Of a stretch of 64,000 nucleotides of DNA, positions 1,517 through 56,856 are shown in pieces (position 1 is the stretch's first letter; each line of letters starts with the position of its first letter). Position numbers and translations under genes: made by a program. The DNA is from Hyphomicrobiales bacterium (GTDB lineage Bacteria > Pseudomonadota > Alphaproteobacteria > Rhizobiales > Beijerinckiaceae): positions 1 to 64,000 of the forward strand of contig JAQGKD010000117.1 of NCBI GenBank assembly GCA_028290285.1, written 5' to 3'. Below the pieces are notes generated by a model. The model saw only the letters and a program-made list of their open reading frames with translations. It had not been told where the DNA came from and did no database searches.

Positions 1517-1532
1517 TGTTTCACGTGAAACA
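1517..1532. promoter_or_regulatory. parS: parS site (ParB/Spo0J binding), perfect 16-mer
   Basis: The 16-base palindrome TGTTTCACGTGAAACA lies between the mnmE stop and the mnmG start. It matches the bacterial parS consensus TGTTNCACGTGAAACA at every position. ParB loads here to build the origin-proximal partition complex with ParA and to recruit SMC. parAB usually sit beyond mnmG-rsmG in this order, which would be off the left edge (inference). Confidence 0.93.
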
Positions 1533-2921: not shown

Positions 2922-2937
2922 TGATTCACGTGAAACA
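2922..2937. promoter_or_regulatory. parS: Second parS-like site, 15 of 16 matches
   Basis: TGATTCACGTGAAACA lies between rho and its terminator and differs from TGTTTCACGTGAAACA only at the third base. The core TTCACGTGAA is intact. It sits 1.4 kb from the perfect copy at 1517. Clustered intergenic parS sites close to the origin are the usual arrangement. Confidence 0.82.
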
Positions 2938-4868: not shown

Positions 4869-5909
4869 TCACGCTCCCCGTACACGTTGAACCAGATGCT
4901 CGACGTGTTCCAGAGGGGTCTCCGGCACGATCCCATGTCCTAGGTTAAAAATATAAGGCTTTCCTGCGAATGCGCCATGGATGAGGTCAATGGCTCGGTC
5001 CAGGGCCGGGCCACCCGCAACTAGCGCAAGCGGGTCGAGATTGCCTTGCACGGGCTTGTGCGGCTGTATTTCCCTAGCTGCCCAGGCCGGATCGATCGAA
5101 GTGTCGAGCCCAATCGCGGTGACACCGGGGAGTTTGGCAAACAGGGCAAGTCTCGATCCGGCGCCTCGGGGAAAGGCTATGATCCTGGCGTCAGGTACGC
5201 TCGCGCGGACACCCTCTACAATTGCCTTGATCGGTGCGAGTGACCAACGCTCGAATTCGCCTGCGGGCAGAACACCTGCCCACGAATCGAAAATCTGGAC
5301 CGCTTCGACACCCGCTGAGAACTGTCTGGTCAGATAATCAACGGAGGCAGTGACTAGCAGGTCGATCAGCTTTTGGAAGAGCTCTGGGTGCAGATAGGAG
5401 AACAGTCTGGCCGGCCCTTGGTCCGGAGTGCCGCGTCCGGCAATCATATAGCTCGCAACCGTCCAGGGAGCTCCGCAGAAGCCTATCAGGGCTGTTTCCT
5501 TTGGAAGGGCAGTCTTTACACGGTCGATTGTCTCGAAAACACTCGACAGCCGGTCCAGACTTAACGTGTCTCGCAAAGCTGCCAGGCCCGCGGCATCGCT
5601 GATTGGTTCAAGGCGGGGTCCCTCGCCCTGTTCAAAACTGACGGCCTGCCCGAGAGCATCCGGTATTACCAAGATATCGCTGAACATGATGGCGGCATCA
5701 AAGCCGAACCGTCGAATAGGCTGGAGCGTTGCTTCTGTCGCCAGACGAGGAGTGTAACAAAAATCCAGGAAGCTCGGAGCAGTGGCGCGGATGGCGCGAT
5801 ATTCCGGCAGGTAGCGTCCAGCCTGACGCATCATCCAAAGCGGAGGCTTCGACGTCACCTCACCATCGAGTGTCCGAAGGAATGGTTTGTTGGCATGGGA
5901 CTTATCCAC
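4869..5909 (-). CDS. hemE: Uroporphyrinogen decarboxylase HemE
   Basis: 346-residue cytoplasmic enzyme that removes four acetate carboxyls from uroporphyrinogen III to give coproporphyrinogen III. The signature PPLWMMRQAGRYLPEYRA (about 23-40) carries the substrate-binding arginines. IMFSDILVIPDALG has the key Asp, and GFCGAPWTVASYMIAG and NLGHGIVPETP are family blocks. The start is GTG at 5909 and overlaps a DnaA-box-like sequence (5902-5910). It is transcribed away from the putative origin, as hemE is in Caulobacter. Confidence 0.97.
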   Translation of the reverse strand: MDKSHANKPFLRTLDGEVTSKPPLWMMRQAGRYLPEYRAIRATAPSFLDFCYTPRLATEATLQPIRRFGFDAAIMFSDILVIPDALGQAVSFEQGEGPRLEPISDAAGLAALRDTLSLDRLSSVFETIDRVKTALPKETALIGFCGAPWTVASYMIAGRGTPDQGPARLFSYLHPELFQKLIDLLVTASVDYLTRQFSAGVEAVQIFDSWAGVLPAGEFERWSLAPIKAIVEGVRASVPDARIIAFPRGAGSRLALFAKLPGVTAIGLDTSIDPAWAAREIQPHKPVQGNLDPLALVAGGPALDRAIDLIHGAFAGKPYIFNLGHGIVPETPLEHVEHLVQRVRGA

Positions 5910-5910
5910 G
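5902..5910 (+). promoter_or_regulatory. DnaA-box-like sequence at the hemE start
   Basis: TTATCCACG matches the consensus DnaA box TTATCCACA at 8 of 9 positions and includes the hemE GTG start codon on the opposite strand. Weaker 7-of-9 candidates lie at 5999-6007 (reads TTGTGCACA on the minus strand) and 6290-6298 (CCATCCACA on the minus strand). The assignment depends on this being the origin. Confidence 0.5.
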
Positions 5911-6040
5911 TCGGGCTCCGGTCTTCTAAAAGAATCTTAGAATCTTTTTTAATCGTCTTCTTTTTCTTATTAGGGGGTGGATTAGCGTTCCGCTGGCCTG
6001 TGCACAACCCAAATCGGTTTTATCCCGGTTTTGGGCGAAG

Positions 6041-6055
6041 TTAACAGAGCGTAAA
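6041..6055. promoter_or_regulatory. Near-consensus CtrA site (TTAA-N7-TAAA)
   Basis: TTAA, seven bases, then TAAA: one mismatch to the CtrA consensus TTAA-N7-TTAA. It lies 31 bases before a perfect copy, inside the candidate origin. CtrA blocks replication initiation at such sites in Caulobacter. Confidence 0.5.
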
Positions 6056-6071
6056 CGTGCCTGTGGACGGC

Positions 6072-6086
6072 TTAACGAACTCTTAA
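6072..6086. promoter_or_regulatory. CtrA box, full TTAA-N7-TTAA
   Basis: TTAACGAACTCTTAA matches the CtrA recognition pattern TTAA-N7-TTAA exactly. Its place in the hemE-ppsR gap parallels the CtrA sites in Caulobacter oriC, where phosphorylated CtrA represses initiation and can also act on the hemE-side promoter. Confidence 0.65.
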
Positions 6087-6322
6087 CGTTTTCAGTCGTG
6101 GGGGCCGCTCGCCTCATGTGAAACATCATCGCCCTATCCCCAATGACCACTGATCGCACAGGACTGAGCTCCAAAACCGTCCGGTCCACCTTTCCTGTTG
6201 ATCCGATTCAGGCAAAAGGTGAGATTTGAAATCCTGCCAGCCTTACAGGGGCCGGTTGTCCGCTTTCTTCCCCAGGTCCAGGCTTGCCCTGTGGATGGCA
6301 GCATAATAGTTCGGAATTCGCC

Positions 6323-7156
6323 TTGGGCCGGAATTACTTCCATCTACATCTCGTCTCTGACGCCACCGGTGAGACCCTGATTGCGGTGAGCCGAGCGGTT
6401 ACCGCTCAGTTTCAGGGGGTCTCTTCGATTGAGCACGTCTACCCCTTGATCCGAACCCGCGCTCAACTTGATCGCGCGATATCGGAAATCGAGTCTGCTC
6501 CTGGAATCGTCCTGTTCACGCTCGTCGATCATGATTTGTCGGACGCGCTTGTAAGCGCTTGCCGGGAATGCGGGAGTCCGTGCCTCTCGGTCCTCGATCC
6601 GATTTTTGGCATGTTCCAATCCTATCTAGGGACCGCACAGACATCTCGGCCAGGGGCCCAGCACATGCTGAACGCTGAATATTTCAAGCGAATTGATGCT
6701 TTGAATTTCACGATGATGCACGATGACGGGCAGCAAGCCGACAACCTTGAACAGGCGGATGTTCTGCTTCTGGGTGTGAGCCGGACATCCAAGACACCAA
6801 CCAGCATCTATCTGGCGAACCGAGGAATCAAGACGGCAAATATTCCGCTGGTGCCAGGGGTGTCGCTTCCCCCATTTGTCGAAAACCTCCGTCATCCACT
6901 CATCGTCGGCCTGATCGCATCTCCCGAACGGATCGTGCAGATCCGGCAGAATCGATTGCTTGCGCTCAATGCAGATCAGGAAAGCCCCTATGTCGATCGC
7001 ATGGCGGTTGCTGCCGAGATCGCTCATTCCAAGCGCCTGTTTGCGGAGCGCGGCTGGTCCATGATTGACGTCACACGACGGTCAATTGAGGAAACGGCAG
7101 CCGCGATCATCGATCTGTATAAGGAACACAGGCTTAAATTTATCGCTGACTCCTGA
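6323..7156 (+). CDS. ppsR: Pyruvate phosphate dikinase / PEP synthetase regulatory kinase-phosphorylase (DUF299, PPRP)
   Basis: Bifunctional ADP-dependent kinase and Pi-dependent pyrophosphorylase that switches PPDK or PEP synthase off and on by threonine phosphorylation. The N terminus YFHLHLVSDATGETL is the family hallmark, and the nucleotide-binding loop GVSRTSKTPTSIYLANRG lies mid-protein. No ATG or GTG precedes the conserved region. TTG at 6323 starts five residues before the conserved block and is my choice (277 aa); TTG at 6284 is the only earlier option. Neither has a strong ribosome site. It is the first plus-strand gene right of the putative origin. Confidence 0.93.
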   Translation: MGRNYFHLHLVSDATGETLIAVSRAVTAQFQGVSSIEHVYPLIRTRAQLDRAISEIESAPGIVLFTLVDHDLSDALVSACRECGSPCLSVLDPIFGMFQSYLGTAQTSRPGAQHMLNAEYFKRIDALNFTMMHDDGQQADNLEQADVLLLGVSRTSKTPTSIYLANRGIKTANIPLVPGVSLPPFVENLRHPLIVGLIASPERIVQIRQNRLLALNADQESPYVDRMAVAAEIAHSKRLFAERGWSMIDVTRRSIEETAAAIIDLYKEHRLKFIADS

Positions 7157-55314: not shown

Positions 55315-56856
55315 ATGCTCAAACCACGTATCGACGCGACGCGACTTCAAAATTCAGGAATCGTACGATTCTCGCCAGATCAGCTCGAAACTCCGGTGGC
55401 ACCAAGCCATGCCGAGGCGTGGCAGAGAACATGCCGGCGCTTGCGAGCTGAGGTCGGAGAGGATGTTTTCAATTCCTGGTTCGGGCGTCTCGAACTCGAT
55501 GAGGTCCACGACGACACGGCGCGCCTCTCCGTTCCCACCAAGTTCCTGAAAAGCTGGATTCAGTCCCATTACACGGACCGGATCATCGCAGCTCTGTCGT
55601 CAGAGATTCCAGTGGTCGCGGCCTTGGCGATTTCCGTCCGCTCCTCGGGTCGAGTGGCCATGCCGCGCATGGCTGAGATCAATGTGCCTTTGCGCTTCGA
55701 GGAAACGGGAACCCGGTCAAGCCAGTCGCCATTTGCCCCGCCCGCGCCCCTGTCATTTCGGCGCGATGCTGACGCGGCCCCGCGTGACATCAAGCATCTG
55801 GATGCGGAAGCACTCGGTGGATCGCCGCTGGACCGTCGCCTGACGTTCTCAAGCTTCCTGGTCGGACGCTCCAATCAATTGGCCCATGCCGCAGCTCAGC
55901 GGGTCGCGCAGGCGCCGGCGTCGGAGGCACCGCTTTATAACCCGCTCTACATCCACGCTTCGGTGGGCTTGGGAAAAACCCATCTCATCCAGGGCATCGC
56001 TCACTGCGCGAGTGAGGCCGGCCGTCGTGTGATCTACCTGACTGCTGAGAAGTTCATGTACGGCTTCGTGTCCGCCCTGAAGGCGCAGACGGCGATTGCC
56101 TTCAAGGAAAAGCTGCGCGCGATTGACGTGCTTGTCATCGACGACGTGCAATTTCTGCAGGGCAAATCGATCCAGCAGGAGTTCTGCCACACCCTGAATG
56201 CGCTCATCGACGCGGGCCGCCAGATAGTCATCGCCTCCGATCGTCCGCCTTCTGACCTCGAAACCCTCGATGAGCGTGTCAGGTCGCGTCTGGCAGGCGG
56301 ACTTTGCGTCGAAATGGGATCTTTGGACGAGGCTCTGCGCGTCAAGATACTCGACACACGCATTGCTGCCGCTCGCGTGTCCCAACCGACGTTCGAAGTG
56401 CCGCCCGCGGTCGTCTCGCTCGTGGCCATGTCGATCCAGACCAACGGGCGCGATCTCGACGGGGCGGTCAACAGGCTGCTCGCGCACGTCACGCTCACCG
56501 GCGCGCCGCTCACCGTGGAGACGGCGGAGATAGCCATTCGTGATCTTGTGCGCACGCGCGAACCCAAGCGAGTGAAGATCGAGGATATCCAGAAGCTAGT
56601 CGCAACGCATTTCAATGTTAGCCGCGCCGACATCCTGTCCTCGCGCCGGACGGCGACAGTTGTGCGTCCCCGGCAGATCGCCATGTACCTCGCCAAGATC
56701 CTCACCTTGCGATCCCTGCCGGAAATCGGCCGCCGCTTCGGTGGTCGCGATCACACGACTGTTCTGCATGCCGTGCGCAAGATCGAAGGACTGTCGAACA
56801 ACGACGGGCAGCTTTCCGAAGAGCTGGAGCTTTTGAAGCGCATGCTGATGGATTAA
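55315..56856 (+). CDS. dnaA: Chromosomal replication initiator DnaA
   Basis: 513-residue AAA+ initiator that melts oriC and loads DnaB. Domain I spans about 33-105, with a variable linker II to about 170. The AAA+ core has Walker A ASVGLGKT (215-222), where Ala replaces the first Gly of the common GGVGLGKT. Walker B is [10 protein letters not shown], and box VII falls in [12 protein letters not shown]. The domain IV DNA-binding signature is [16 protein letters not shown]. It lies about 49 kb from the putative origin. Confidence 0.97.

Follow-up and report, generated by a model that had tools for sequence, protein, structure and literature searches.

Does the short intergenic region between hemE and ppsR in this genome serve as the chromosomal origin of replication and, if so, would CtrA control initiation there as it does in Caulobacter? 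The stretch in which these questions arise, hereafter called the window, comprises positions 1-64,000 of contig JAQGKD010000117.1 from a Hyphomicrobiales bacterium (GCA_028290285.1, an assembly of 145 contigs). The first-pass annotation had read the gap as a candidate oriC with Caulobacter-like control sites, and had suggested that cell-cycle control of initiation by CtrA is therefore shared. The relevant features are collected in Table 1.

Table 1. Features of the window that bear on the hemE-ppsR gap.
Feature	Position	Strand	Basis and remarks
parS, exact TGTTTCACGTGAAACA	1517..1532		consensus match; 4.4 kb from gap
parS-like, one mismatch	2922..2937		3.0 kb from gap
hemE, uroporphyrinogen decarboxylase	4869..5909	-	NCBIfam TIGR01464, 386.6 bits, cut-off 302.95; left boundary gene
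DnaA-like TTATCCACG over hemE start, 8 of 9 bases	5902..5910	+	sequence match
AT-rich tract, candidate DNA unwinding element	5924..5973		nearest-neighbour energy
Two GANTC sites inside AT tract	5932-5936, 5940-5944		sequence match
Imperfect CtrA box TTAACAGAGCGTAAA, one mismatch	6041..6055		sequence match
DnaA box CCGTCCACA, one base from CtrA box	6062..6070	-	fits YBRTCCACA
Perfect CtrA box TTAACGAACTCTTAA (TTAA-N7-TTAA)	6072..6086		exact match, conservation
Third GANTC	6205..6209		sequence match
ppsR (COG1806/DUF299)	6284..7156	+	NF003742, 333.7 bits, cut-off 225; right boundary gene
DnaA box CCATCCACA, ppsR side	6290..6298	-	fits YBRTCCACA
dnaA (Bac_DnaA domain)	55828..56310	+	PF00308, 200.5 bits; about 50 kb from gap

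Gene layout and parS sites

As first described, transcription diverges from the gap, with hemE on the minus strand and ppsR on the plus strand. Left of hemE, rho and mnmE also scored above their NCBIfam cut-offs, and the remaining neighbours are, to judge by their sequences, presumably hemJ, maf, coaE, dnaQ, secB, mnmG, rsmG and parA. The PpsR sequences of many relatives can be aligned only from about residue 13, where TTG and GTG are common, and the alignment with congeners suggests that the TTG at 6323, rather than position 6284, is probably the conserved ppsR start. Since TTG or GTG is shared at this position, the true gap would run from about 5910 to 6322 (413 bases). Its GC content is 51.3%, as compared to 59.9% for the window. 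The experimentally mapped origin of Caulobacter is reported to be flanked by the same two genes, hemE and COG1806, which are separated there by 404 bp (PMC1914354).

A survey of the class comprised 86 genomes, including our own; a ppsR match was present in 57, and 40 loci were taken from the 56 others, so that 16 of these 56 genomes were left out. One of the loci (L208) belongs to the family of the window. In 37 of the 40 loci, hemE and ppsR point away from each other. Among the 25 other congeneric loci, ten (L090, L093, L094, L096-L099, L102, L104 and L107) lack hemE in the 1.5 kb that precede ppsR; next to the gap they have a HemJ-like gene instead, or rho in L099. The close congeners share at most 74% identity with the window in HemE, and up to 94% in PpsR. 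Starting from hemE, ppsR was not found beside it in 13 of 80 loci, four of which span less than 2.1 kb upstream of hemE; in L010, L015-L017, L021, L023, L040, L061 and L062, 3.3-6 kb upstream of hemE are available and contain no ppsR. The loci with hemE and without ppsR include Methylosinus, Methylocystis and a Cohaesibacter, which indicates that the pair is split in some lineages.

The parS sites that had been placed 3-4.4 kb from the gap were found there. When the whole genome was searched with what we take to be the parS consensus, allowing up to one mismatch, only three sites were obtained, namely C31:1517 and C31:2922, both in the window, and C139:80940. The third is adjacent to the end of its contig (L113), where genes resembling parA and rsmG lie with the C-terminal part of MnmG. 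Because the window starts inside an MnmG-like gene (positions 1-1498), its contig and C139 are probably neighbours. Two other genomes, G022 and G055, likewise have pairs of parS-like sites, 5-7 kb from ppsR.

DnaA boxes, the AT-rich tract and other motifs in the gap

The DnaA box originally put forward for this region includes the hemE start codon. The match to eight of nine positions is indeed present; however, none of the 15 other congeneric loci with hemE beside the gap has it at the hemE start. It was consequently rejected as a conserved DnaA element and is probably incidental. Two better DnaA boxes, at 6062-6070 and 6290-6298, had been missed. Both correspond to YBRTCCACA, the reported DnaA-box consensus of Caulobacter (PMC2877005), which has ten matches in the window. 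The two in the gap region, one before 6284 and the other on the ppsR side, are few in absolute terms and compare with an expectation of 0.06 per 400 bp. All six species of the closest clade share the TCCACA core of the 6062 box, with neither its place nor its spacing altered, and the five nearest species other than the window's own share that of the 6290 box, again in place. Across 55 relatives, the gaps contain the consensus 67 times, as compared to 1.3 times in shuffled sequences, and 39 more distant loci contain it 61 times as compared to 1.1.

The AT-rich tract, previously placed at 5922-5971, is at 5924-5973 the least stable 50-mer of the entire window, and the least stable 100-mer covers positions 5876-5975. 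In 75 of 98 gaps, the start of the AT-richest 50-mer is no more than 70 bp away from hemE.

GANTC is the CcrM-type site, and the three copies noticed earlier are present at 5932, 5940 and 6205. Their number in this gap is not significant (3 vs. 1.46 expected; 162 of 1000 shuffles reach 3). The 55 relatives have more GANTC in their gaps than shuffles do (232 vs. 101), as do the 39 distant loci (138 vs. 71), and one of four control words, AGNCT, is in excess too (97 vs. 60 and 72 vs. 38, respectively). For both reasons the density of GANTC was discarded as evidence at the window's gap. Microvirga loci contain up to 12 GANTC in and around the gap. The search for an IHF-type site gave no match in the gap, either to WATCAN5WTR (exact) or to WATCAANNNNTTR (up to one mismatch), and no structured RNA reached the Rfam gathering score between 4800 and 7300.

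GC skew and the position of dnaA

If the origin lay outside the hemE-ppsR gap, such as beside dnaA at 55.8 kb, the gap would be only a conserved divergent promoter region. The skew of the window itself is compatible with this, as it is weak and noisy, has no clear switch at 6 kb and reaches its cumulative minimum near 18 kb. Moreover, of the five congeners examined, four have dnaA 42-52 kb from the gap and one has it on a separate contig, so that a coarse skew cannot always separate dnaA from the gap.

A congener with a 5.9-Mb contig (G022) was sampled in 19 stretches of 20 kb. The skew was negative in eight of the nine stretches between 1.6 and 4.16 Mb (the other being +0.011), and positive in the ten others. 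When the region from 4.3 to 4.7 Mb was read without gaps, the cumulative minimum fell at 4,508,073, which puts it some 9 kb away from the hemE-ppsR gap. The 50-kb flanks of the gap have skews of -0.006 before it and +0.057 after it, whereas dnaA, 52 kb away from it, has slightly negative values on both sides (-0.011 and -0.008), with no change of sign within 50 kb. Nowhere in these 400 kb are DnaA boxes (up to one mismatch) more densely clustered than in the hemE-ppsR gap, and of the four exact CtrA boxes of the region one falls within the gap as well.

The skew check that had been proposed for the origin thus gave a clear answer in G022 and in neither the window nor G055, a single contig from another family with no switch at its hemE-ppsR gap. 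This last result either counts against the gap as oriC or comes from a genome too weakly skewed to tell; not being clear, it was not used as support. On contig 1 of G055, dnaA is about 729 kb from the gap, as compared to about 50 kb in the genus of the window. In the window, no cluster of YBRTCCACA surrounds dnaA, and the least stable stretch is the AT tract of the gap. An origin near dnaA, the case named at the outset as speaking against the proposal, is not favoured, given that the skew of G022 keeps its sign around this gene; we regard an origin outside the gap as very unlikely. The boundary genes, the parS sites, the AT tract, the DnaA boxes in relatives and the skew switch in one congener together give good support to the candidate oriC, and that the hemE-ppsR gap is the chromosomal origin appears to us very probable indeed.

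CtrA boxes in the window and its relatives

Both the perfect CtrA box at 6072-6086 and its one-mismatch copy at 6041-6055 are present as annotated. The first half-site of the imperfect copy was found again in three sisters, and the second half was not. The exact TTAA-N7-TTAA pattern occurs only once in the window; the genome (5.0 Mb) contains 32 exact matches, as compared to 17 for the reversed control pattern, and dinucleotide shuffling of the gap creates an exact box 29 times in 5000. The perfect box exceeds what chance is expected to give, as its recurrence in relatives shows.

The gaps of 55 relatives contain an exact box in 33 cases (mean of 200 shuffles 0.4, maximum 3), and half-site spacings from 0 to 15 other than 7 were found in at most 10 loci. 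TTAA half-sites recur at spacings 3, 6 and 14 in 10, 8 and 8 of the 55 loci, above the remaining spacings, perhaps reflecting half-site arrays. In seven Microvirga loci (L037, L038, L044-L046, L050 and L058) two exact CtrA boxes lie 59 bp apart in the gap.

The distribution of the box was analyzed on a quick PpsR tree of 111 rows, which includes the window and has several long branches. The exact box was found in 13 of the 25 other congeneric loci, in 21 of the 34 further members of the window's 60-row clade, in 8 of 23 loci of other families and in only 1 of 28 loci of the clade formed by Rhizobiaceae, Phyllobacteriaceae and Brucellaceae. The counts exclude L002 and L003, which have the same gaps as L083 and L087, the 13 of 80 loci in which ppsR was not found, and the partial or paralogous ppsR matches of G017, G047 and G058 (its second match). 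The rows are not independent, since they comprise nine Microvirga and 25 congeners. In the 34 loci of the wider clade, 28 boxes fall within 13,237 bp of gap, and the other 383,472 bp have none. The signal weakens outside the order: in the class sample the exact box is present in 5 of 37 hemE-flanked gaps, and other spacings between 3 and 12 reach 3. Of 20 representatives of the order, each from a single family, 6 have it.

Placing the box in 44 of 111 rows needs at least 20 changes on the tree, and therefore the box comes and goes; its absence in exact form from 12 of the 25 other congeneric loci likewise indicates that the site turns over. The idea of a box ancestral to the order and lost in Rhizobiaceae was dropped, considering these changes together with the low counts among the representatives and in the class sample. 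This patchiness would also be expected if the gap were oriC and its CtrA box a functionless chance match in AT-rich DNA, as the exact box is missing from 27 of 28 loci of the Rhizobiaceae lineage and from nearly half of the congeners, and in the class sample spacing 7 barely exceeds the others. However, in the window's clade spacing 7 is far above all other spacings and the boxes cluster in the gap, with none in the 383 kb around it, so that a chance match is in our judgement very unlikely.

A DnaA-CtrA module and the proposed control of initiation

In the window and in the five closest species, a TGTGGA core is located exactly four bases before the CtrA box. A nine-base DnaA-type box thus precedes the CtrA box by one base in all six species (eight rows, L002 and L003 being the duplicates), the CtrA box itself being exact in five of them and having one mismatch in the sixth. 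This arrangement was found in no other locus among 113, nor in the 40 class loci, and none of 2000 single-base shuffles produced it. Since the sequence around it has diverged, the module looks as though it has been under selection.

The proteins that such an arrangement calls to mind are encoded in the genome. CtrA (L162) matches NF045991 with 423.6 bits (cut-off 350), and its best match of known structure is Cell cycle response regulator CtrA, 4qpj, over residues 1-118. GcrA, DnaA and a protein with a RAMA domain, which we take to be part of CcrM, are encoded as well.

From the layout and the motifs we infer binding, competition and origin activity as follows. DnaA would bind at 6062-6070, at 6290-6298 and at weaker boxes, and would melt the AT tract at 5924-5973. 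The site for phosphorylated CtrA would be the full box (6072-6086), perhaps together with the imperfect copy (6041-6055). With a single base between the full box and a DnaA box, CtrA would stand in the way of DnaA there, and the origin would be held closed until CtrA is removed; ParB, bound to the parS sites, would segregate the region. The conservation of the motif and the sharp control given by its spacing support a role of CtrA in initiation, and we hold the whole account, an oriC gated by competition between CtrA and DnaA at 6072-6086, to be probable.

The same box might instead act as a promoter site of hemE or ppsR within an oriC whose replication it does not gate. This would suit the main function of CtrA, which is that of a transcription factor, and the place of the box between two genes that start in opposite directions; furthermore, in 5 of the 13 loci with no ppsR found beside hemE, the 450 bp upstream of hemE include an exact box, and so the box may also go with this gene. 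On the other hand, six of the ten congeneric loci that lack hemE retain the exact box upstream of ppsR, which means that the box does not need hemE. Also against a promoter site are the DnaA-type box that abuts the CtrA box at a fixed distance in six species, and the search of 5850-6350, which gave neither a terminator nor a sigma-70-type promoter (CtrA-type promoters being outside its reach). A purely transcriptional role therefore seems to us unlikely, and gating of initiation by CtrA is the reading that we favour.

How widely this control is shared is a separate matter. The oriC of the first-pass annotation is well supported, but its statement that control by CtrA is shared is too broad and holds for part of the order: 1 of 28 loci in the Rhizobiaceae lineage and 5 of 37 gaps in the class have the box, and the Sinorhizobium meliloti origin is reported not to be bound by CtrA (PMC4433202). 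We lean towards a reading in which a CtrA-gated origin characterizes much of the Hyphomicrobiales, the Rhizobiaceae lineage excepted. In this reading the full box often occupies a similar place of oriC in Beijerinckiaceae, Methylobacteriaceae, Chelatococcaceae and Bosea-type bacteria (the named rows do not include Methylobacterium, Bradyrhizobium or Brucella proper), the fused module belongs to the lineage of the window, and the Rhizobiaceae lineage would control initiation without the box. If this is true, the lack of CtrA at the S. meliloti origin is a trait of that lineage and not the rule of the order.

Comparison with known origins

By position and parts, this oriC is ordinary for alphaproteobacteria; what is new is the distribution of CtrA boxes outside the Rhizobiaceae lineage. 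The conservation in other alphaproteobacteria of the genes flanking Cori has already been published, and the same paper mentions unpublished observations of binding sites conserved in over 30 genomes (PMC1914354). Among the literature matches listed, none dealt with CtrA boxes at the origin for any of the families considered here; subscription journals are mostly outside the coverage of that search, so that absence from the literature is unproven.

How CtrA restrains replication outside Caulobacter is the question that the box-carrying clade addresses. In S. meliloti, loss of CtrA is reported to increase the DNA content about 20 times even though the origin is unbound (PMC4433202). Cultured relatives of the window, such as Microvirga lupini (L045) and Methylocella tundrae (L005), would allow direct and indirect control to be compared within one order.

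The gap resembles Caulobacter Cori in its boundary genes, in its length of about 400 bp, in its AT tract, in DnaA boxes of the Caulobacter consensus, in a full TTAA-N7-TTAA box and in the position of a CtrA box beside a DnaA box. It differs from Cori, for which PMC1914354 reports five CtrA sites and five DnaA boxes, in having one full and one imperfect CtrA box and two good DnaA boxes, and also in the lack of an IHF-type match. With fewer sites and no such match, it is not classed as a full Cori-type origin, but only as similar in its working.

The S. meliloti chromosomal origin is reported to lack a CtrA motif (PMC4433202). In the related Sinorhizobium and Ensifer loci of our set, hemE and ppsR enclose a gap of this kind too, and it contains one DnaA box in L054 and four in L055 when one mismatch is allowed. 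The near absence of the exact CtrA box from the Rhizobiaceae lineage agrees with that report. In Hyphomonas neptunium, which belongs to another lineage, a CtrA ChIP-seq peak is reported to adjoin the chromosomal origin (PMC7200025); the likeness noted here is one of position. Finally, the origins of Rickettsia and Wolbachia are described as flanked by hemE, mostly 380-455 bp long and with predicted DnaA and CtrA motifs (PMC1914354). They share these traits with the gap studied here and differ from it in belonging to AT-rich genomes and, in Wolbachia, in having COG1253 as the right-hand gene.
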